From Chlorobiota bacterium (GTDB lineage Bacteria > Bacteroidota > Ignavibacteria > OLB7), in assembly GCA_021296135.1 (NCBI GenBank), contig JAGWAZ010000007.1, positions 1-50,154 of the forward strand: DNA of 50,154 nucleotides. The letters run 5' to 3'. The position numbers and the translations under genes are program-made. Below, in pieces: positions 14,502 through 36,774 of the stretch; positions within the stretch are counted from its first letter, which is position 1; each line of letters starts with the position of its first letter. The notes below the pieces were generated by a model that worked only from the letters and a program-made list of their open reading frames with translations, did no database searches and was not told where the DNA came from.

Positions 14502-16703
14502 TTACTCTTTTGATTGACGATTAACGGTTATGCGAACCATCCTGGAAAAAATACGTCCTTCAGGTAGATTGTTATCGAACGTGTCACTGCTCGATTCGCC
14601 CGATCCTCGAACGCTTGTTACGGAAAGTTCCGGCAGAGAGAGACTGAAGCGTACGCTCTGGAGCCTCTTCTCTACATTCCGTGCCCGTTCAAGAGCGAGC
14701 TCACGATTACGCAAGGCATCACCTACACGGTCGGTAAAACCGGTAATCTCTACCCAGGCTCCTTCTTCTGCAGCACGTGCGATCTCATAGATTTCTGCAA
14801 CATGCTGCGGTCGCAATTCCGCTTTGTTGTATGTGAAGCCAACGAGCATGTATTCTTTCACTTCCAATTCTTTCTCAGTCTTCTCTTCAGGTGTGCGAGT
14901 TACGTGCTCTAGTACACGAAATGATCCCTTATCAGCACCCTTCTGCCCATATATATCTGTTACTTCAAAACGGTAATGAATCGGTGTGAGATCACGATTT
15001 ATTCGCAAATCATTGAGAGGCCAGTACTTACTGGCAGTAGCCTGATCCGGCATAGCTGTACTATCAAAACGCAAAAGCACTTTATTCCCTTGTCGGACAG
15101 TGATATTCCAGTCTGCGACGGAAGCTGTATCATCTACCTCTGCATGGAAATTGATTGCCGGGGGGGAGGCTACGCTGGCAAGGCCCTCTACAACAACGGG
15201 CCGGAGAAGTGATTCTCCATCAAAAATAAACTCAGCACGTCGATTCTCACTCCGGCCATCAACAGTCTTTTCGCTTGACGGATTTGTCGGAGTGCCCGAA
15301 GAGACGCTCACTCGTCTTTCATCAATACCCCACACATCTGTCAAGTATGTCCGGACAGACTTGGCACGCTCCAATGCCAATTCCGGGTTCGGCTCTTCAT
15401 CCTGGGTCGCCGTTCCAACTATCGTGACAGATACTTCCGGGCGACTGCGAAGACGTTGTCCCAGGACATTAAGAAGGTGATGGTGTAGATCGATAGGCGT
15501 TATCGAAACAAGAGAATCGAAATTGAAGCGATCAGCCTCTTCACCACTCTTGAATCGAATATAACGGGAGGGGATTGTAGGGCTACCTCGATCAAAGAAG
15601 AGATGTGGTATGAATGGAATGCTTCGACTCCAGGGAGCCTCGCGAATCTCAATAATCGGGTCGGGATATTCATTGCCCGCATCATCAACCCCAACTACAC
15701 TGATACTGGCATAGAGTTCGGAAAGTATGTTGTCAACTTCAGCATCTGTGGCTGTATCCACCGACTGCGGCGGAACTATATCGACTTCAGTCACTTGTAT
15801 TTGATGTGTGTCACCGGGGTCGATTAACGAAAGCCGTGAAGGAATTGTAGCAATCAATTCTTGCTTCTTACTGCGATTCTCCCAGGTAAATCCCATCGAA
15901 GCATGAAACGTGGTTGTGTTCCATTGATATGACTTTTCGATCGACGTTGTCATCAGACTGACTCCAAGCTCCGGAATCAGAGCGAACCTGTCGCCAAGTG
16001 GCAATCGAGTTCCACCAAAGGTCGAAATCTCAAAGCCAAGATTGTTGAAATCAAGTTTCCCCCCTCGATAGATCGGTCTCTGAAAGTCGTTGGTTTCTGT
16101 ATAGGTTGCCCCGAGCGGTGAGGCAATTTGCTCATACTGACGGACATCGCTGACCGATAACAACAGCAGAGATGGAGTAAAACCGAGTCGCAGGTTCTGC
16201 ACCGGTTCCCAAAGAAGTCCCCCCGATATGCTTACTGCACTTACCGAAGCATCAAGCCTGTGTTGAGTAACTACCTGTTCGGATACCCCATCGAGATAAC
16301 GAGCAGGATTTGTGAATGTCTCGGAAAAATTGATCGGACGGTTCTGCCATCCGGCCCCTCCTGTAAGCAGAAAAGAGGGCAAACCGAGGAGAGGCATCTC
16401 GAAGAAGAGGCGCAAGGCAGTTACTCCGGTCACTTGATCTGTAAACTCTCCACAGCTTGAACTTCCATGATAAATGTCAAGCGTTGTTTGATGAGTTGTC
16501 AATCCGACAAGGCCGGCAACACCAAGTCGCCACTGGAGCTTTCTCTTATCAACTTTTGTGGAGTCGGTGAAGTGATCGTGAGCGCTCCCCTGCGAAAAAA
16601 GTGGAGTTACTGTAGGAAAAGCAAATAGAGAGAACAGGACAAGAAAGGCAAAGCCTTGCCTGCCAAGCACAGAAGGGAGACTTTTCTGCTCGGAACTTCT
16701 CAT
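14502..16703 (-). CDS. Outer-membrane barrel protein with two OmpA-like domains
   Basis: 733 residues. A signal peptide (about 1-38, core FAFLVLFSLFAFPTVTPLFSQ) is followed by a beta-barrel-like region at about 50-285, with the signature GGTRLPLGDRFALIPELGVS. Two OmpA C-terminal peptidoglycan-binding domains follow. The first (about 380-500) has ELALERAKSVRTYL and GRSENRRAEFIF. The second (about 635-730) has LVGFTYNKAELRP, ITGFTDRVGD and RNRELALERARNV. It probably tethers the outer membrane to peptidoglycan. It lies downstream of an anti-sigma-like gene, with a hairpin between them. Its barrel shares a motif with the barrel fused to the second anti-sigma-like protein (32073-33548). Confidence 0.88.
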   Translation of the reverse strand: MRSSEQKSLPSVLGRQGFAFLVLFSLFAFPTVTPLFSQGSAHDHFTDSTKVDKRKLQWRLGVAGLVGLTTHQTTLDIYHGSSSCGEFTDQVTGVTALRLFFEMPLLGLPSFLLTGGAGWQNRPINFSETFTNPARYLDGVSEQVVTQHRLDASVSAVSISGGLLWEPVQNLRLGFTPSLLLLSVSDVRQYEQIASPLGATYTETNDFQRPIYRGGKLDFNNLGFEISTFGGTRLPLGDRFALIPELGVSLMTTSIEKSYQWNTTTFHASMGFTWENRSKKQELIATIPSRLSLIDPGDTHQIQVTEVDIVPPQSVDTATDAEVDNILSELYASISVVGVDDAGNEYPDPIIEIREAPWSRSIPFIPHLFFDRGSPTIPSRYIRFKSGEEADRFNFDSLVSITPIDLHHHLLNVLGQRLRSRPEVSVTIVGTATQDEEPNPELALERAKSVRTYLTDVWGIDERRVSVSSGTPTNPSSEKTVDGRSENRRAEFIFDGESLLRPVVVEGLASVASPPAINFHAEVDDTASVADWNITVRQGNKVLLRFDSTAMPDQATASKYWPLNDLRINRDLTPIHYRFEVTDIYGQKGADKGSFRVLEHVTRTPEEKTEKELEVKEYMLVGFTYNKAELRPQHVAEIYEIARAAEEGAWVEITGFTDRVGDALRNRELALERARNVEKRLQSVRFSLSLPELSVTSVRGSGESSSDTFDNNLPEGRIFSRMVRITVNRQSKE

Positions 16704-16797
16704 CCGACTGATGTTCTTGCTTATGGCACAATCATGCGCTAATGCCTGACACGGAAAATATTAGGAGAAATTGTGACTCTATACTCTCTATAACTCG

Positions 16798-16829
16798 GAG
16801 AAGCCGGCACAATATGGCGTCGGCTTCTC
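16798..16829. other. 9-bp intergenic hairpin
   Basis: GAGAAGCCG (16798-16806) pairs perfectly with CGGCTTCTC (16821-16829). It lies between the anti-sigma-like gene and the barrel-OmpA gene and has no U-run. It could be an attenuator or an RNA-processing site that sets the relative expression of the two genes. Confidence 0.4.
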
Positions 16830-16860
16830 AAGCAGTATATGCCACCAAGGATTAAAAAGG

Positions 16861-17652
16861 TTATTCTTGATCGATATTGGTCGTGTTGGTATTCTGCGTT
16901 GACCGTCTCCCCAAAACAGGAGTGACACGAGGAGGGCCGCTACCTTCAAAAGTATTCGCATCGGCAGCAGTTGTGGTTAACCCATCCTCCATGATATCAG
17001 GGTTATCAACCAAAAATTCTGATACCACTGCCGGATCTCGTGAATTGTTTTGTCTTGATTGCATAGATCCGGCTACCGACGTACCTACTCGACTGAGACT
17101 TTCTTCTGACTTCGCTTCCTGTCCATCTAGAACGTTCTCTTCTACTGGAACGGTCTGTATCGACAGGTCACCCGTTGAAGATGGCTGTTGCTCAACAGGG
17201 ATTGATGTTGCCGGCATAAGATTTTGCACTCCCTCCTCATTTGATCCATCACCGGCATAATACCCAACAAAGAAGCTACCAACCGCAAGCAGTAGGACTA
17301 ACGGTCCTGATACCCATCGCGGAATGTGGCGGAGGATGTTGTTGGATGTACCATGGTGAAGGACAACCTCTGTTTCGAGGGGCGCTTCTTTCTGTGCGAC
17401 TGCTGCTTCTGCTGCTGTAACCGACCCAACTGCTGCAGTTACAAGCGCCGCCTCTTTCATAACGCTTGTTCTAACTCCTGAAGAGACCCGCGTCTTGTCT
17501 GCCTGTTCATTCAGAATCTTGTCCAGCATTACGTGAGATTTCAACCCAAGACGCAAGGAATCACTTGAGGCGACCGAGAGAAGAAATTGGCGCTCCTGAT
17601 CGGGCGACATCTCATTGTTGAAAAATGACGTTATAAGGTCTGCCGTGTTCAT
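16861..17652 (-). CDS. Putative membrane anti-sigma factor
   Basis: 263 residues. The N-terminal ~50 residues (FFNNEMSPDQERQFLLSVAS then a helical run to LDKILNE) resemble the short helical start of anti-sigma factors. A variable linker leads to one transmembrane segment at about 113-133 (VSGPLVLLLAVGSFFVGYYAG), then a long Ser/Thr/Asn-rich, presumably periplasmic tail to residue 263. No zinc-binding HxxxCxxC motif is present. The call rests on the layout (downstream of an ECF sigma gene) and on similarity in its first 50 residues and membrane anchor to the protein at 32073-33548, which also follows an ECF sigma gene. An IS copy now separates it from its sigma gene. Confidence 0.65.
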   Translation of the reverse strand: MNTADLITSFFNNEMSPDQERQFLLSVASSDSLRLGLKSHVMLDKILNEQADKTRVSSGVRTSVMKEAALVTAAVGSVTAAEAAVAQKEAPLETEVVLHHGTSNNILRHIPRWVSGPLVLLLAVGSFFVGYYAGDGSNEEGVQNLMPATSIPVEQQPSSTGDLSIQTVPVEENVLDGQEAKSEESLSRVGTSVAGSMQSRQNNSRDPAVVSEFLVDNPDIMEDGLTTTAADANTFEGSGPPRVTPVLGRRSTQNTNTTNIDQE

Positions 17653-17693
17653 ATTGTGTTCAATTTCATCTATCGTTCAAAAATTTTTCCGCT

Positions 17694-18369
17694 GGCTCTA
17701 GACCAGAAGATTTATGATGTTACTTCAAAGATAATCGATGTTAAGGTTGTCCGAATGTGGGTAATCCCGATCTACAACGGGATTATCCATATTTCAACAA
17801 TAACTCCCCCCTGCCTGCCGCAGGAAGGTAGTTCTCTTTTCATCTGTTCCTGGTTCTTCTTCCAGCGCCATTCATATTCCTTTCGGTGATAGGGAAAATA
17901 GCTTTTCACCCCCTTAAACTTCGAAAGCCTTCGCTTACAAAAGTTCCAGAAACTCTCTATGCCATTACTATGGATGCCTTTGCCATTGCTGAAGCCCCGG
18001 GTCTTCTTTACCCGAAAGTCTTTGTCATAACCCACATCCACAGACGGGTTGCTTTGCAATGTCCCGATCACCCCTGGGTGGCCTATTCACTTCCCGTATT
18101 CGCTTGTGGCCAAAATACGCCCCATCGAACTCCACTCCGCCATACAACTGTGTCTTATCAATGGTCTGCTTGATCTAAATGCACTCGCTGAACATCAGAT
18201 AATAGCGGTTCATCGTCTTGCGGTTACAGCCCAGTAAGATGCTCGCCTTAGTTGCATCGACATCCGCAAAAAGGAAGCGTATGATTTTTTTGGCCTTGTA
18301 ATCGCTTAGTTTGCTATATTTCATAAGGCTTTCAGACCACAGTTTAAAGTAATCTTCTGGTCTAGAGCC
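17694..18369 (-). mobile_element. Decayed IS1595-family (IS1016-like) element
   Basis: Two perfect 19-bp inverted repeats (GGCTCTAGACCAGAAGATT at 17694-17712 and its complement at 18351-18369) bound a 676-bp element. It is flanked by the direct repeat TTCCGCT (17687-17693 and 18370-18376), a target-site duplication. The family usually gives 8 bp; 7 are identical here. Size and ends fit the IS1016 group. It has inserted between the ECF sigma gene and its putative anti-sigma gene, in the same orientation. Confidence 0.88.
17772..18324 (-). pseudogene. Transposase pseudogene, ISXO2-like DDE type
   Basis: The start ATG 18324 (MKYSKLSDYKAKKIIRFLF) gives an N-terminal helix-turn-helix and then YGGVEFDGAYFGHKR, the region around the first catalytic Asp. 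The frame contains TAG at about 18178-18180 after FSECI. The middle, which normally continues past the glycine-rich turn, is missing. A second frame carries the C-terminal part GKGIHSNGIESFWNFCKRRL, the family signature. Internal stop, deletion and frame change mean that no active enzyme can be made. Confidence 0.88.
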
Positions 18370-18424
18370 TTCCGCTAATCAAGCACCCATTCTCAACTCA
18401 TCAAAAAAGGATTACGACTCCTTG

Positions 18425-19063
18425 TTACTCTTGGTTGTCATAACTCCCCATTGGATCTTCATCTTCCAACATTCCAAGCCAATTGGCAAGAAGTTTCCGA
18501 AGCGAGTGGCGTGCGCGAAATGCACGTGTCTTTGCAGCGGTCACGGAGACTCCCTGCATTTCAGCAATCTCATCGAACGCGTAGCCAAGCATGGAATGGA
18601 GAACAAAAGCCTCTCGCTGTATTACCGGCACACGCGTCAAAGCACGATTAACCAGTTCCTTCAATTCGCTGTACTGATTGTTGTCCTGTAACATCCATTC
18701 CCCTGCCGGATCGATAACATCAATCGAAACGTTCCCTTGCCTTCTTTTTCGATGCTCGATAAACTTCAACCCGGTATTTCGAGCTACTGTGAAGAGGAAT
18801 GCACGAAAATTCTCAATCTCTTTCTCTCTTCCACGACGGCACATCCTGACAATGCGCATCCAGGTCTCCTGAAACATTTCCTCAGCATCCTGATGAGTCG
18901 AGAGCAGATACTTGCAATAGATGAACAGAGGCTTTTCATAAGCTTCATAGAGCTTTCCAAATGCAAGCTCATCTCCTTGAAGAAAAGCGGAAAAAAGGTC
19001 CTCATCCCGCACGCTTCGGGCCGGAATATCCTTTCTTGATTCGTTTGTGTGGGGAGCGGTCAT
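18425..19063 (-). CDS. ECF-family RNA polymerase sigma factor (locus 1)
   Basis: 212 residues. Sigma region 2 lies at about 24-95 (FLQGDELAFGKLYEAYEKPL, DAEEMFQETWMRI, FRAFLFTVARNTG) and region 4 at about 130-190 (VIQREAFVLHSMLGYAFDEIA then VTAAKTRAFRARHSLRKLL, the helix-turn-helix binding the -35 element). It would direct polymerase to a small regulon. Downstream on the same strand come a putative membrane anti-sigma, a barrel-OmpA protein and the T9SS cargo. In P. gingivalis an ECF factor (SigP) works with PorX in T9SS control. PorX lies about 2.8 kb upstream here, so a similar link is plausible but not shown. The promoter it recognises is not evident. Confidence 0.93.
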   Translation of the reverse strand: MTAPHTNESRKDIPARSVRDEDLFSAFLQGDELAFGKLYEAYEKPLFIYCKYLLSTHQDAEEMFQETWMRIVRMCRRGREKEIENFRAFLFTVARNTGLKFIEHRKRRQGNVSIDVIDPAGEWMLQDNNQYSELKELVNRALTRVPVIQREAFVLHSMLGYAFDEIAEMQGVSVTAAKTRAFRARHSLRKLLANWLGMLEDEDPMGSYDNQE

Positions 19064-28543: not shown

Positions 28544-28705
28544 TTGACCCTCGACTCATGACTCTTTAACCCTCGACTCATGACTCTTTAACCCTCGACT
28601 CATCGACCCTTTGATCCTCGACTCATCGACTCTCAACTCATCGACTCTTTGACCCTTGATTCATTGACCCTTGACTCATGACTCATGACTCTTTGACCCT
28701 CAACC
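28544..28705. repeat. Heptamer array F, the largest (overlaps the arsC 3' end)
   Basis: About 21 degenerate units alternate between 7 and 8 nt, such as TTGACCC, TCGACTC, ATGACTC, TTTAACCC, with the common core GACYC. It is the longest array in the window. Its last ~23 bases encode the final residues LRVKES and the stop codon of arsC. Confidence 0.85.
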
Positions 28706-29111
28706 TCTCTCGTACGAACTTTTCAGTATAGTCGCGTATAACATCCCGTGTGTTTCGAAAGACTTCAAGAATTTCGTCTTCGGTTCCGGTAGCATCGGCT
28801 GGATCAGGAAAGCTGTGATGAATTTTTTCCGCGGTCGAAGGAAACCAAGGGCATCGTTCCCGTGCGTTATCACAGACAGTAATCACATAATCGAAATCCA
28901 TCCCCGAATAATCATCCATATGGTTTGATGTGTGCCCGGATAAATCTATCCCCGCCTCGGACATAACCTTGATAGCACGTGGGTTTACTCCATGAGCTTC
29001 CACACCGGCACTGTAAACCTTGGCATTCTCCCCTGCAAAATGTCGGAGCCAGCCTTCGGCCATCTGGCTACGGCAACTATTGCCGGTACAGAGAACAAGA
29101 ACACGATTCAT
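28683..29111 (-). CDS. arsC: Thioredoxin-type arsenate reductase or low-molecular-weight protein tyrosine phosphatase
   Basis: 142 residues in the LMW-PTP fold. The P-loop CTGNSCRSQ starts at Cys8, with Arg14. DNARERCPW near residues 81-89 supplies the second and third cysteines of the arsenate reductase relay (a Cys at about 80 before DNA, and one at 87). SFPDPADATG carries the general-acid Asp. The three cysteines favour arsenate reduction over plain phosphatase activity. No arsR, arsB or arsenite exporter is nearby, so it stands alone. Its C-terminal end is encoded by array F. Confidence 0.88.
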   Translation of the reverse strand: MNRVLVLCTGNSCRSQMAEGWLRHFAGENAKVYSAGVEAHGVNPRAIKVMSEAGIDLSGHTSNHMDDYSGMDFDYVITVCDNARERCPWFPSTAEKIHHSFPDPADATGTEDEILEVFRNTRDVIRDYTEKFVRERLRVKES

Positions 29112-29154: not shown

Positions 29155-29625
29155 TTACCTACACAACAACATCCGCCGGGTCTCGATGCCGGCGCTTGTA
29201 GTCAACGAATAGAAGTACATGCCGCTTGCGAGTTGTCTTTCAGGGTCAAAGACCTTCTCATAGTGGCCTTCAACCTGGAATTCATCATCGACCAGAGTGG
29301 CAATCTCGTTGTAAAACGCATCGAAGACGCGGAGGGTAACACGTGTCTCTCTATCCAATGTATAGCCAATAGTTGTCCGTTCCTGAAATGGGTTGGGGAC
29401 ATTCGGCTCGAGGAACAGAGGCTGACCGGGGGTAATCCTGATCGTATCTCCCTCAACCGAATTCAGACGAGGCATCATTACGGGAGCGATATTGTCAGTC
29501 AACCTCGAGATGTTGCGTATACAAACCGGTCCGGATTCATCAGAGCATTCCTCCATACTGTGAGTTGCCACCGTTGCGAGAACGATCGCCGGGAGGAGAA
29601 GCATGGGAGCTATGAATCGACTCAT
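29155..29625 (-). CDS. Small secreted protein with T9SS sorting domain
   Basis: 156 residues. A signal peptide (MSRFIAPMLLLPAIVLATVA) is followed by a passenger of ~45 residues with two nearby cysteines (CSDESGPVC). The sorting domain starts at about 70 (LEPNVPNPFQERTTIGYTL) and ends RRMLLCR, with an unusual Cys before the last Arg. Like 26710-27126 it has almost no passenger. Its start overlaps the stop of the upstream oligopeptide ATPase gene by 4 bp, an odd partner. Confidence 0.82.
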   Translation of the reverse strand: MSRFIAPMLLLPAIVLATVATHSMEECSDESGPVCIRNISRLTDNIAPVMMPRLNSVEGDTIRITPGQPLFLEPNVPNPFQERTTIGYTLDRETRVTLRVFDAFYNEIATLVDDEFQVEGHYEKVFDPERQLASGMYFYSLTTSAGIETRRMLLCR

Positions 29626-31423: not shown

Positions 31424-32032
31424 ATGCTTACGGAGACTTTGATACGATCTCGCAAGAAAAAAACGATGCGTGACGATAACGAGTTGATGCGCCGTATAGG
31501 CCGTGGCGACAAAAAGGCGTTTCAAATTCTGTACAATCGTTACAAGCGGCAGATATTTCTCTATTGTTTTCGCTTTTTAAATGATCGTGAAGCCGCCAAG
31601 GACACTCTGCAGGAAGTCTTTGTCCGCCTTTACGAGAATTCTAAAAAATACAACCCGGAATCCAATTTCGCCGCGTGGATTCACACAATTGCCCGAAATC
31701 TCTGCATTAACGTCCAGCGGAACAGCAAGAAATATGTTGATTTTACGGAGTTACGGGCAAAGGAATATGTTGATTTTACGGAGTTACGGGAAGTCGATCC
31801 GGAGGCGGAGACTTCCAACGTGCTGCTCCGTGAAAAGTTAGCCGACGCAGTGGCTGACTTGCCAGAAATCTTTCGGGAGGCATTAATCCTTCGTGAATAT
31901 GGAGATTGTTCGTACAACCAGATAGCTAAGATAACCGGACAGAATCTTGCAACAATCAAGTACCGCATCTTCAGAGGACGTGAACTGCTGCGCGAGCGTC
32001 TTGGTCATTGGCTTGATGAGTTGAATTCATAG
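31424..32032 (+). CDS. ECF-family RNA polymerase sigma factor (locus 2)
   Basis: 202 residues. Region 2 at about 25-95 has KKAFQILYNRYKRQIFLYCF, AAKDTLQEVFVRLYE and FAAWIHTIARNLC. Region 4 at about 145-195 has LPEIFREALILREYGDCSYN and GQNLATIKYRIFRGRELLRE. The linker holds an in-frame 33-bp tandem duplication (KYVDFTELRAK then EYVDFTELRE). ATG 31466 (MRDDNELM) would give a more usual N-terminus than ATG 31424; neither has a good ribosome binding site. It leads a plus-strand unit with an anti-sigma-barrel fusion, a lipoprotein and a T9SS cargo. Its TAG stop opens heptamer array K. Confidence 0.93.
   Translation: MLTETLIRSRKKKTMRDDNELMRRIGRGDKKAFQILYNRYKRQIFLYCFRFLNDREAAKDTLQEVFVRLYENSKKYNPESNFAAWIHTIARNLCINVQRNSKKYVDFTELRAKEYVDFTELREVDPEAETSNVLLREKLADAVADLPEIFREALILREYGDCSYNQIAKITGQNLATIKYRIFRGRELLRERLGHWLDELNS
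31731..31790 (+). repeat. In-frame tandem duplication inside the sigma factor gene
   Basis: A 27-bp identical segment occurs at 31731-31757 and 31764-31790, offset 33 bp (11 codons). It duplicates YVDFTELR in the linker between sigma regions 2 and 4. The near-identity shows that it is recent. Confidence 0.9.
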
Positions 32033-32072: not shown

Positions 32073-33548
32073 ATGGCAACACAAGATATGCAGGAAATGC
32101 AGGAAATGCTCGAAGGGATGCTCAACGATGAGCAGACCGCCGAGGTCCTGCACAGATTGTCGGTCAGCCCGGAAAAGCTGTCGGCATTCCGGCAGCATAT
32201 GGCCTTGCGCAGAGCTATTGAGCAGGATGCGCGATTTGGTGCCTTAGATGATAAAGAAGATAATGTTGTCTGGGCAGCTATACTTGGGGCAACCGGTGGT
32301 CTGGTAACCGGCGGTGCATTGGTCCGAGCAAGTGGCTGGCTGGCAAAGGCAGCAGCATTGGTTGTAGCTGGTCTTGCAGGCTTCTTCATCGGGACTGCGG
32401 TCGACGGTACGCTGTTCACTCCTGATGAAGCAACGTTGGCTGATAATTCTACACAACAGATTCAAGAGAATTCCCTCCAGGCTGCTATTCCGGTATCCTC
32501 TATCGAACCAGGACGAGTTGACACGGTAGTGCAGACCGTGATAGAGTACCATGATCGTATCAAGTACAAATATGTTGATCGTGATCCGGCTATTGTTCAA
32601 GCACCTGGCCCGGCCCCACAAGATACCGACATACAGGCCGCAGATTCTGAATCCTCAGCAGTGTTGCCCAAAACTGTATCCTTTAAGGCTATTCATGATC
32701 TTAGCGCGAAGTCAACACCGGTATCCCCCAATCACTACGGGGTGAGTCTGGATGCTATAGCTGCATTGCAGGCGCTCTCCACCAACGATCTTAATGGGAA
32801 TCCCAGCAATAGAATAGCAGAGATTACCTCTCTGTCTTCGCATTCTCCGATAGTAATAGTTCCCAATCCAAACGAATTTCTTGACCAGAAGACTTCAAAC
32901 TTATCAGCCGGCAACCGTTCACCAAAGGTGAAGGAGGACGATCCATCGCTCGAAAAATCCTCCACTGTTATTTCGCTCATGCGAAATGGTTTTGAAGTCG
33001 GCTACAACGAACGGCTTGGTCGTGTTACTCCTCCCCCGACTGTTCGCGATAATTCGGAGCCAAACTTCGGTGGTCGGTCCATTGACCTGACATGGCGGTC
33101 CCTCAACGGCAGTACCGGACTGGGTGCCCGTCTGATATACGGAACGTTCTCCACTGTCAAGTTAAGTGAGAAGATATGGGATAGACTCCGCGTAGCAGAT
33201 ACGCTTCTTGTTCCATCACTTAAATCCTCGCGGGAATTCAACGTTGAAGTCTTTGCGAATTATCGACTACCCCTCTTCAGCGATCGCTTTGCCCTCAGTC
33301 TGGAAGGATCGTTTGGTCTCTCATCAACACGATTCCAAGTCGGCGGTGACCTTTCAGTCCTCTATCTGATGACAAACTGGCTTGGAGCACAGGGAGGAAT
33401 TGGCTACGGTGGCTACCGCTACACAACGCAGCAGGAACGGGAGAACGCGTTGAAGAATTATGAGAACGTTGCAATTACCGACGACTTTATTGATGCGTAC
33501 AGTGGAACACTGCTTGAAGGACGTTATGGATTATTCTTCAGGTTCTGA
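32073..33548 (+). CDS. Anti-sigma-like membrane protein fused to an outer-membrane barrel
   Basis: 491 residues. The N-terminal ~60 are helical and soluble (GMLNDEQTAEVLHRLSVSPE, LSAFRQHMALRRAIEQ), similar to the first 50 residues of the putative anti-sigma at 16861-17652. One or two hydrophobic segments follow (about 66-85 and 90-110, ending GLAGFFIGTAVDG). A Pro/Ser-rich linker runs to about 300. The final ~185 residues alternate in barrel fashion and end LFFRF with terminal Phe, as outer-membrane proteins do. FANYRLPLFSDRFALSLEGS matches GGTRLPLGDRFALIPELGVS in the barrel-OmpA protein. A single chain would span both membranes. The anti-sigma role is inferred from position and similarity, not a known motif. 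Confidence 0.72.
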   Translation: MATQDMQEMQEMLEGMLNDEQTAEVLHRLSVSPEKLSAFRQHMALRRAIEQDARFGALDDKEDNVVWAAILGATGGLVTGGALVRASGWLAKAAALVVAGLAGFFIGTAVDGTLFTPDEATLADNSTQQIQENSLQAAIPVSSIEPGRVDTVVQTVIEYHDRIKYKYVDRDPAIVQAPGPAPQDTDIQAADSESSAVLPKTVSFKAIHDLSAKSTPVSPNHYGVSLDAIAALQALSTNDLNGNPSNRIAEITSLSSHSPIVIVPNPNEFLDQKTSNLSAGNRSPKVKEDDPSLEKSSTVISLMRNGFEVGYNERLGRVTPPPTVRDNSEPNFGGRSIDLTWRSLNGSTGLGARLIYGTFSTVKLSEKIWDRLRVADTLLVPSLKSSREFNVEVFANYRLPLFSDRFALSLEGSFGLSSTRFQVGGDLSVLYLMTNWLGAQGGIGYGGYRYTTQQERENALKNYENVAITDDFIDAYSGTLLEGRYGLFFRF

Positions 33549-33612: not shown

Positions 33613-34281
33613 ATGAAACGGCTACAACACATACGAATGCTGAGTAACCTGGGAGCGATCCTCTGTTGCGGCATCATTCTTTCCTCATGCAACGTAACCG
33701 GACCTGATGCTGATGTCTGGGAAGATGTCAGCACCTTCAGTTGGCCGAAACAGACCGGTGTGTCGATGAAGTATCGAAGTACAGGATACGATCCTATCAG
33801 AGAGACTGATTTTACTGAAACCGAAGTAGTAACTGTCGACATTAGTGAACTAGATGGCCAGGAGATGTTTGTTCTGAGTGACCCGGACAAGTTGACTTTC
33901 CAGGAAGTTTACTACCTCCCTTCCAAAGACAGATTGATCGTAAAGCAGGAAGAATTTGGTGAAGGGATTGCTCTCTTAGCTCCGCTCGAGAAAGGACACA
34001 AGTGGTATACTTCTCAGGATTCGTCTTGGCAAGCCGAGATCATCGAACGTTTCGCATATCGAAAAGTTGACGGCAAGATCTACCAGAATGTTGTCGCCGT
34101 CAGATATCGCATGAAGTCCAACAGTTCGATCTATGAGCCTGAATACATCCGATTCTACGCACAGGGAGTAGGTGATATTCTGACAATCCGGAATGTCTAT
34201 CCCTCAACAAATGCAACATCACAACCATTGCCACAAGAGGAAGCACGAACTGAATTAATCGAGACAATTCCTGAAAGTTGA
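33613..34281 (+). CDS. Putative lipoprotein of unknown function
   Basis: 222 residues. The N-terminus holds a hydrophobic stretch and a lipobox (CGIILSSC, Cys at about 26), so it is probably lipidated and periplasmic or on the outer membrane. The mature region is beta-rich (VSMKYRSTGYDPIRETDFTE, DISELDGQEMFVLSDPDK, FYAQGVGDILTIRNVY). I recognise no family, though the pattern resembles proteins that measure or hold a periplasmic ligand. Being between the anti-sigma-barrel fusion and a T9SS cargo, it probably belongs to the same regulon. Confidence 0.75.
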   Translation: MKRLQHIRMLSNLGAILCCGIILSSCNVTGPDADVWEDVSTFSWPKQTGVSMKYRSTGYDPIRETDFTETEVVTVDISELDGQEMFVLSDPDKLTFQEVYYLPSKDRLIVKQEEFGEGIALLAPLEKGHKWYTSQDSSWQAEIIERFAYRKVDGKIYQNVVAVRYRMKSNSSIYEPEYIRFYAQGVGDILTIRNVYPSTNATSQPLPQEEARTELIETIPES

Positions 34282-34344: not shown

Positions 34345-36774
34345 ATGAAACTGCTACGACTATTGATAATAGCTTTGATCTCCCTGGGAGGATGGAAACA
34401 GACCTCTCTCCTGGGACAAGAGGAGCAGTCACGGACCTCTTCTGCTGCTCCATATTCCGGAACCGAATACTTTATCTCGTTTCCCCGGAGCGATCCTGAC
34501 CGAAGACACCATTTCATGGGATTGATGATTACCTCCGAGTTTGCAACAATCGGTACAATCGAGGTACCGATAGTTCCGGATGATCCCCTCAAGACGATCA
34601 AGAGTTTTGAGACAACATCGTTTGAGGTAGAACCAGGGAAGGTCACGATGATCCCGATCGATCGATCGCTGGAACCTGATTATCCAGGAGAGGCAAACCA
34701 TAATGGTGAAGCATCCGAACGAACAGTCCGTTTAACGTCACGCGCTCCGGTTTCAGTAACGGTAATTAATGCCCGGCAAGGCTCGAGTGGAGCCTATTCG
34801 GTCTTGCCGGTTGATCACTGGGGTAAAGAGTACATGGCAACTATTCTGCCGGCTACACCGAACCACAATGAGATCACAAACCAGGTTCTCATCACCGCTG
34901 CCTCTGATGAAACAGAGATTACTGTCTCCCCGAGCGCTAAGGTATCAAAATGGGATCCAGGAGAGAAAATCCGTTTCCAACTCAACCGTAACCAGACCTG
35001 GCTTTTGCAAGCAAATGCACTGCCGGGGACAAATGGCTCACTCGACCTGAGTGGAACAACCATTACTGCCAGCAAACCGGTCGGTGTTGTTGCAGCACAT
35101 ACACGAGCAGCTTTATCTGAGAACCCGACTGAACTCTTCGATAGCAAACGCTATGCTGCCTGGCATGCAATCATGCAGATGCCAATGGAAGCAGAAGAAT
35201 GGGGGAAAGAATATTTTGCCACACCCCTTGGAAATACTAATGATCGATTCAGAGTAATTGCCAAACAGAGTACTTCCGTGCATGTAGACCTGTACGATAA
35301 TAATGGTGGATCTATTGATCGGAGGTCTATTGAACTGAGGCCTGGCCAAGTAGTTGATGTCACAGCATCGTCAATTGGAATGCAATTGAATGGCCCAACA
35401 GGCTGGAGTTCCAACAAGCAGTTCATGCTGACTCAGATCAAAACCAGTGGTGGCGACTACCCCAATCCGGAAAACAGTCCGGAACTGATCCGCCTTGTAC
35501 CGACAAATCGTTATGCTAATCGGACCGTTTTTGGACTTCCTAATACGATTGGAGAAACATCCTTGAGCGAATTTGATCTCCGTTTGATCGCAACCGGAAA
35601 TGGGAATCCATTTGAAAACATTCTGGTTGATGGACTCAAAGTTGTCGATCTTCCAAACGGATCAATCTCGCAGATTACAGGCAACTACTGGAGCTTTAAA
35701 GGTACGATTGTCCCAGGAGGACACACAATCACAACATCGAATGGTGTGCTCTTTACAGGTAACGTTAAGGGTAATAGCGGAGATGCCGGCAGTGTGTCAC
35801 TGGGCTGGGGGCTTCCCCATTGGTCGGCAACGATAGAGGCTGATGTAACGCCCCCACGCATCCTTGCACAGACAGAGCCTTCAACGGATCAACTACAGGT
35901 CGTTGTAACCGATCGGACGCAGACATACTTCAGTGGCATCGACGAAGTGGCAGTATATAACAGTCCGGGCTGGGAACGCAACACATTCAATCGCCCGTTC
36001 GATCCAGACCTTGATGCTACTGCGCAATTCAATGTTAAGGCAGGTGTTGACCCGAGCGGACCTCTCACACTCCTTCTGCGTGATCGTGACGGGAATGAAG
36101 CAACTACTCAGGTTCATAATGGAGTCTGTCAGAAGACTGCATATGCCGCGACTGACAATGTTACTCTCTTTGTAGGCAACTCAGGACAGGACGAGAAGAT
36201 AATTCGAATAGATGCTAATCCGTGTGGTGATGAGGCCCATATTACACGGATGAAGTATGATTTGAATACAGAGGCAAACAAACATCTGGAAGCCCCGGCA
36301 TTTACTGATGGAGGATCGACTCCCTATACAATTGGGGCAAATGACTCAACCGAAATTCGTATACGTACCCACCCTAACCTAAGTGGAGAGTTTACGGTGC
36401 AGACGACGCTTGAGTTAATCATCGACGATCAACCACACAAGATTCCAATCACCCTTGTTGTTGACCGAACGGTAGGGATCGCTGATGAAAACGGCGTGGA
36501 AGGATTCCTTGCTATGCAGGTTGCACCTAATCCGTTTACGCAAAAGACATTCATCACGTTCGGAAAAATTTCCGACAAGAACAGACGTGTTGAGATCATT
36601 GATGCACTGGGTTCCATCGTCAGGACATATCAACCGTCAGAGCTTGCCGGGAACGCTCGGATCGAGTGGAATGGTAAAGACAAGAATGGCAAGAAACTTG
36701 GAGCAGGACTCTACATTGCCCGGTTGACTTCTTCGGAAGGAACGAGCCTAAGGCGCATACTGCTTGTACGATGA
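34345..36774 (+). CDS. T9SS surface protein with IgGFc-binding-type domain
   Basis: 809 residues, signal peptide MKLLRLLIIALISLGGW with cleavage near residue 25. The N-terminal half matches the IgGFc-binding-protein N-terminal domain: GTEYFISFPRSD, SVTVINARQGSSGAYSVLPV, WGKEYMATILPATPNHNEI, SKPVGVVAAHTRA. This domain is common in bacterial surface proteins despite its name. A beta-rich middle follows, and the type A sorting domain ends the protein (MQVAPNPFTQKTFITFGK, WNGKDKNGKKLGAGLYIARL, RRILLVR). The export route is T9SS. It ends a locus led by an ECF sigma factor and is followed by a strong terminator. Confidence 0.9.
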   Translation: MKLLRLLIIALISLGGWKQTSLLGQEEQSRTSSAAPYSGTEYFISFPRSDPDRRHHFMGLMITSEFATIGTIEVPIVPDDPLKTIKSFETTSFEVEPGKVTMIPIDRSLEPDYPGEANHNGEASERTVRLTSRAPVSVTVINARQGSSGAYSVLPVDHWGKEYMATILPATPNHNEITNQVLITAASDETEITVSPSAKVSKWDPGEKIRFQLNRNQTWLLQANALPGTNGSLDLSGTTITASKPVGVVAAHTRAALSENPTELFDSKRYAAWHAIMQMPMEAEEWGKEYFATPLGNTNDRFRVIAKQSTSVHVDLYDNNGGSIDRRSIELRPGQVVDVTASSIGMQLNGPTGWSSNKQFMLTQIKTSGGDYPNPENSPELIRLVPTNRYANRTVFGLPNTIGETSLSEFDLRLIATGNGNPFENILVDGLKVVDLPNGSISQITGNYWSFKGTIVPGGHTITTSNGVLFTGNVKGNSGDAGSVSLGWGLPHWSATIEADVTPPRILAQTEPSTDQLQVVVTDRTQTYFSGIDEVAVYNSPGWERNTFNRPFDPDLDATAQFNVKAGVDPSGPLTLLLRDRDGNEATTQVHNGVCQKTAYAATDNVTLFVGNSGQDEKIIRIDANPCGDEAHITRMKYDLNTEANKHLEAPAFTDGGSTPYTIGANDSTEIRIRTHPNLSGEFTVQTTLELIIDDQPHKIPITLVVDRTVGIADENGVEGFLAMQVAPNPFTQKTFITFGKISDKNRRVEIIDALGSIVRTYQPSELAGNARIEWNGKDKNGKKLGAGLYIARLTSSEGTSLRRILLVR

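Follow-up and report, generated by a model that had tools for sequence, protein, structure and literature searches.

Anti-sigma factors that span both membranes are known from the Dma family of Bacteroides, which is described as confined to Bacteroidota and as pairing with ECF21 sigma factors (PMC13088901). In Phocaeicola vulgatus, the anti-sigma factor of the M0N98_03761/03760 pair is predicted to span the periplasm and to carry a C-terminal outer-membrane barrel, its sigma factor is activated by envelope damage (PMC9308784), and the EcfO pair of B. fragilis is described as similar (cited there).

Within the window, by which we mean the whole 50,154-nucleotide stretch of DNA analysed here, an open reading frame that starts with an ATG at position 32,073 and closes with a stop codon at 33,546–33,548 encodes a 491-residue protein, hereafter the candidate (Table 1). 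Very probably, this is an anti-sigma factor spanning both membranes that uses a barrel as its sensor and holds the ECF sigma factor encoded upstream. Like Dma, it follows the order anti-sigma domain, transmembrane helix, disordered tether and C-terminal barrel, with an ECF sigma gene adjacent; its predicted layout is also that of the M0N98_03761/03760 pair, a Bacteroidales type that we set beside it by description. An earlier note on this DNA had called the anchoring of one chain in both membranes rare; rare it is, but not unprecedented, since Dma anti-sigma factors have been described with such a layout (PMC13088901, PMC9308784). The FecI–FecR–FecA system likewise connects an outer-membrane barrel to an inner-membrane anti-sigma factor and an ECF sigma factor, but does so with three proteins and a TonB-dependent receptor, whereas the candidate joins barrel and anti-sigma domain in one chain; FecR-type cell-surface signalling was rejected, as the candidate has no FecR domain match. 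RseA and the zinc-finger class I factors resemble it in their N-terminal four-helix domain, in the adjacent ECF sigma gene and through weak profile matches of some of its relatives, but they have no barrel and end in a periplasmic domain. Such factors need separate sensors (DegS, RseB). Finally, Dma3 of B. thetaiotaomicron also carries barrel and anti-sigma domain on one chain, but there the sigma factor is fused as well, which is not the case here.

Table 1. Features of the candidate, its gene cluster and the split counterpart within the window
Feature	Position	Strand	Evidence
Candidate gene, two-membrane-spanning anti-sigma candidate	32073..33548	+	ORF, homologues, AlphaFold2
Putative anti-sigma domain, residues 1-74	32073..32294	+	AlphaFold2, conservation, relatives' profile matches
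Predicted transmembrane helix, residues ~85-110	32325..32402	+	Hydropathy, model, relatives
Predicted disordered periplasmic linker, residues ~111-305	32403..32987	+	pLDDT, conservation
Predicted eight-stranded outer-membrane barrel, residues 306-491, C-terminal Phe	32988..33545	+	AlphaFold2, Foldseek
ECF sigma factor, 202 aa, presumed partner	31424..32032	+	Pfam, TIGR02937
Lipoprotein, 222 aa, Cys after 'LSS', third cluster gene	33613..34281	+	Homologue at matching place in L035-L038
Secreted IgGFc_binding-domain protein, FlgD_ig / T9SS sorting tail, fourth cluster gene	34345..36774	+	Pfam
ECF sigma factor of the split counterpart, second in the window	18425..19063	-	Sigma70_r2 1e-11, Sigma70_r4_2 1.4e-11
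Short anti-sigma candidate, 263 aa: N-terminal domain, TM 113-131, 132-residue tail, without barrel	16861..17652	-	Sequence, hydropathy
Envelope protein with OmpA domains, 733 aa, N-terminal half barrel-like (putative)	14502..16703	-	PF00691 3.6e-18, two stretches

The reading frame is not a product of chance, because full-length homologues keep its length and layout in relatives, and an ORF artefact is thereby ruled out. Such homologues, at 27–36% identity, are found in four other species of the same GTDB family, and more distant ones, mostly of about 390–520 residues and built on the shared plan, occur throughout the class. Within the candidate's family, mean pairwise identity is 61% for the N-terminal domain, 39% for the barrel together with the transmembrane region and 22% for the linker. 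The family members carry the labels Chlorobiota, Bacteroidetes and Armatimonadetes in named MAGs, of which the Armatimonadetes label is probably wrong. A search for the green-sulfur marker FMO (PF02327) gave no match anywhere, controls included, and is thus uninformative about the class of the host. Also of note, a 9-bp repeat (ATGCAGGAA) lies at the start of the gene (32,088–32,109), where the alignment places extra residues that are absent from relatives.

Two AlphaFold2 runs on the candidate, with 5 and 19 aligned sequences, respectively, gave results that agree. The N-terminus is modelled as four helices (residues 2–13, 19–31, 33–56 and 60–74), with pLDDT values in the 19-sequence run of 81–91 for residues 1–50, 61–67 for residues 51–70 and about 39 for residues 71–80. 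This is the helix layout of a class I anti-sigma domain, namely a three-helix bundle followed by a fourth helix before the membrane (PMC7406223). A long helix then spans residues 85–110 of the model; the best Kyte–Doolittle window lies at 93–111 (score 1.88), and a single transmembrane segment occupies a similar position in 19 relatives. Positive residues (R85, K92) precede this helix and acidic ones follow it, and the N-terminus is therefore predicted to lie inside by the positive-inside rule; inspection revealed no N-terminal signal peptide. There is also a weaker hydrophobic stretch at residues 66–84 (score 1.65); were it to cross the membrane too, as one arm of a hairpin, the linker would be left in the cytoplasm. 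Beyond the membrane, the model is disordered until about residue 300, with pLDDT below 50 across most of 109–298. The linker of about 195 residues contains 13% Ser, 10% Ala and 9% Pro, and is rich in these three over residues 116–300. Linker length ranges from 116 to 240 residues in all 19 relatives measured, which, extended at about 0.35 nm per residue, should always be enough for a periplasm of about 25 nm. The earlier note had read from the letters a helical start, a transmembrane segment at about 90–110, the absence of a cleavable signal and a linker long enough to cross the periplasm, all of which agree with these results, the disordered linker being far longer than required. The roughly 190 residues that it gave for the linker become about 195 (residues 111–305), and its description as Pro/Ser-rich has to be adjusted as well, the composition being Ser/Ala/Pro-rich and not strictly Pro/Ser.

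From residue 306 onwards, eight strands (306–319, 331–343, 348–368, 377–400, 406–416, 420–432, 437–451 and 475–490) are modelled as a barrel, mostly at a pLDDT of about 90 or more, with lower values in the loops. The chain ends in 'RYGLFFRF', and most relatives end in '...YRF' or '...FHF', so that the terminal Phe to which the earlier note had pointed lies inside a conserved aromatic ending. Overall pTM is only about 0.4, a value to be anticipated when a disordered tether connects two domains, and the placement of the domains relative to one another is thus meaningless in the model. A Foldseek search of the PDB returned outer-membrane barrels, namely a Legionella Dot/Icm-associated porin, OmpA, NspA, Ail, OmpW and OprH. 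The match to PF13568 (OMP_b-brl_2) is weak (E 0.04, below the gathering score), and this weakness would suit an inner-membrane anti-sigma factor of the ordinary kind, carrying a beta domain soluble in the periplasm. Such a fold is very improbable, however, given the eight long strands at a pLDDT of about 90, the outer-membrane barrels among the best PDB matches and the C-terminal signature in most relatives, and we rejected it on the barrel model and the Foldseek result. The AlphaFold-type check that had been proposed for this purpose thus yields a barrel and not a soluble beta domain, and the claim of one polypeptide in both membranes is supported computationally, as a predicted topology, by the single transmembrane segment, its flanking charges, the disordered linker and the confident barrel.

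The partnership with a sigma factor is indicated by gene order and by its conservation. The upstream ECF sigma gene is on the same strand as the candidate gene, at a distance of 40 bp, and its product matches Sigma70_r2 (1.3e-16) and Sigma70_r4_2 (3.9e-12) in Pfam and scores above the cut-off for TIGR02937 (sigma70-ECF). It is 47–50% identical to the sigma factors that precede the candidate's homologues in four relatives. An ECF sigma gene precedes essentially all of the approximately 80 homologous or related loci that were read, and the same holds for 20 of 20 extra loci examined; in the pairing table only L008 (at a contig edge), L025 and L057 are without a computed sigma gap, and the latter two do have an upstream sigma factor, being present in the sigma tree. 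The candidate itself matched no anti-sigma profile in Pfam or NCBIfam, and no strong match to such a profile was found in any single member of its own family. Among its relatives, RseA_N and zf-HC2 each matched 3 of 19 weakly (best E 7e-4 to 9e-4), and a paralogue from its own genome (C42, L033) matches zf-HC2 above the gathering score. Because of the upstream ECF sigma factor, the RseA_N and zf-HC2 matches of relatives and the four-helix domain, the most fitting role for the candidate is that of anti-sigma factor to the sigma factor encoded beside it. The sigma gene also contains an in-frame 33-bp tandem duplication (31,727–31,790), which gives YVDFTELRAKE followed by YVDFTELREVD in the linker that connects regions 2 and 4.

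The two genes open a conserved cluster. The order sigma factor, anti-sigma factor, lipoprotein and IgGFc_binding/T9SS-type protein is kept in each of the five family species that were read, where an ABC transporter gene, also conserved, adjoins these four genes on the opposite strand. The lipoprotein, which has no Pfam or NCBIfam match, is 30–36% identical to its counterparts in L035–L038, and is possibly a modulator of the sensor; its gene trails the anti-sigma gene in 5/5 species of the family. The fourth protein matches PF17517 (1.2e-34), FlgD_ig (2.8e-7) and Por_Secre_tail (6.6e-6), and is 30–34% identical to homologues at the equivalent place in L035–L038. Together, the lipoprotein and the secreted IgGFc-domain protein are plausible targets of the sigma factor. 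Upstream of the cluster, on the minus strand, lie a low-molecular-weight phosphatase/arsenate-reductase-like gene (28,683–29,111, by inspection) and a gene whose short product carries a weak T9SS sorting tail (29,155–29,625).

The candidate is one of three fused forms in its genome, the others being C42 (L033) and C113 (L069); a further one runs off the end of its contig (C68, L070), and there are two split forms. In a split form, the sigma gene is followed by a gene for a short anti-sigma factor, with a tail of about 100–136 residues, and then by one for a separate OmpA-domain protein. Split forms lie in the window at 14,502–19,063 (minus strand) and in L034, L083 and L087. For the short protein of the window, which lacks a Pfam match, the assignment as an anti-sigma factor was based on its layout and on the parallel operons in L034, L083 and L087, where the OmpA-domain gene follows downstream in matching order. 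The interval between this sigma gene and that of its short anti-sigma factor holds degraded pieces of an IS1595/ISXO2-like transposase (17,772–18,324, minus strand), which match PF12762 at E 0.0012, short of the gathering score; because of them the pair may have lost a shared transcript. In other families of the phylum (L071, L072, L078, L079, L080 and L082), a sigma factor is paired with a short anti-sigma factor of 218–240 residues that has a conserved 'FGNKNAV' or 'FGRRNA' tail, and a protein of about 410–420 residues comes next. The split forms of the class, together with a disordered linker that would be easily cut, could be taken to mean that the candidate is itself cut constitutively into an inner-membrane anti-sigma factor and a free small barrel, which would then signal by contact. 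We consider this improbable, as the halves are fused in one ORF class-wide, the barrel ending is conserved, and the minimum linker of about 116 residues is what is expected where one chain must reach across. A continuous chain between the two membranes is the reading that we prefer.

How closely this chain is related to Dma was assessed against Dma-like loci gathered from a NigD-bearing Bacteroidales-like genome family, of which seven sigma-paired forms constitute alignment A4; since these loci were found by layout and not by name, it is layout and context that identify them as Dma. They include sigma-fused, Dma3-like chains of 547–584 residues (L126, L128, L129 and L131), whose sigma domains form one clade (support 100/96). 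The candidate's host shares its GTDB phylum with the NigD-bearing genomes and belongs to a different class, and whether it breaks the confinement of Dma to Bacteroidota depends on the taxonomy used. One might regard the candidate as an orthologue of Bacteroides Dma with an ECF21 partner, and hence as a mere extension of the known range: domain order and sigma pairing match, lipoprotein genes stand beside both kinds of locus, and an AU test does not reject a single clade of the candidate's sigma factor and the Das sigma factors (p = 0.155), for which reason we dropped separate origin as a proven claim. However, profile–profile comparison detected no similarity between the N-terminal domains of the candidate and of Bacteroidales Dma (hhalign probability 0.2%), with a weak 26% for the barrel and 10% for the whole. 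In the sigma tree, the Bacteroidales Das sigma factors and two further sequences form a separate clade (support 100/99), and the branch to it leaves E. coli RpoE and FecI on the same side as the candidate's sigma factor. The Bacteroidales Dma profile found 39 genomes outside the candidate's class and one marginal match inside it, whereas the candidate's profile found barrel-fused forms in its own class only and short forms (open frames of 246 residues or fewer) elsewhere; the latter profile is not blind across classes, because it did find short anti-sigma factors there (e.g. E 2.3e-9, G324). Orthology to Dma is therefore unlikely in our judgement. The anti-sigma domain of the candidate has about 74 residues and four helices, against about 45 residues before the transmembrane helix in Dma, and the operon partners, the class within the phylum and the position of the sigma factor outside the Das clade differ as well. 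On these sequence comparisons, the candidate is Dma-like in layout yet a distinct variant with a differently built anti-sigma domain. Tentatively, and with almost as much to be said for it as against it, bridging anti-sigma factors may have arisen at least twice in the phylum: in Bacteroidia with a short N-terminus and an ECF21 partner, and in the candidate's class by fusion of a class I (RseA-like) domain to a small outer-membrane barrel. The split forms of that class, in which the OmpA-domain protein is separate, would then be ancestors or derivatives that persist beside the fused ones.

From these features we infer how the bridging factor might operate. Its N-terminal bundle would sit on region 4 of the sigma factor and its fourth helix on region 2, one helix would pass through the inner membrane with the N-terminus inside, and the disordered linker of about 195 residues would cross the periplasm to a C-terminus that the BAM machinery would fold into the eight-stranded barrel, the presumed sensor. 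The signal may be a barrel that is not inserted, displaced or ligand-bound, or a damaged envelope; by analogy, the activation of the M0N98_03761/03760 pair by envelope damage suggests a signal of this kind. A change at the outer membrane would then travel directly along the chain; in the simplest case it would expose or strain the linker, and a periplasmic cut of the linker followed by an intramembrane cut would free the sigma factor. The genome does encode an M50 intramembrane protease, which says little about this release because M50 proteases are nearly universal. As a guess, the freed sigma factor would activate the cluster to which it belongs, with the genes for the lipoprotein and the IgGFc-domain surface protein among its targets.

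Signalling from the surface to transcription in bacteria is usually a relay of two or three proteins. A single chain linking the outer membrane with the sigma factor would make the relay directly testable, with linker length, cleavage and barrel insertion separately changeable, and the presence of fused and split forms in one genome would offer a natural comparison between one-chain and two-chain designs. The candidate's class consists mostly of uncultured bacteria, distant from the gut Bacteroides in which Dma was described, and a second family with a like layout and no detectable sequence similarity would suggest that this solution can be reached more than once.
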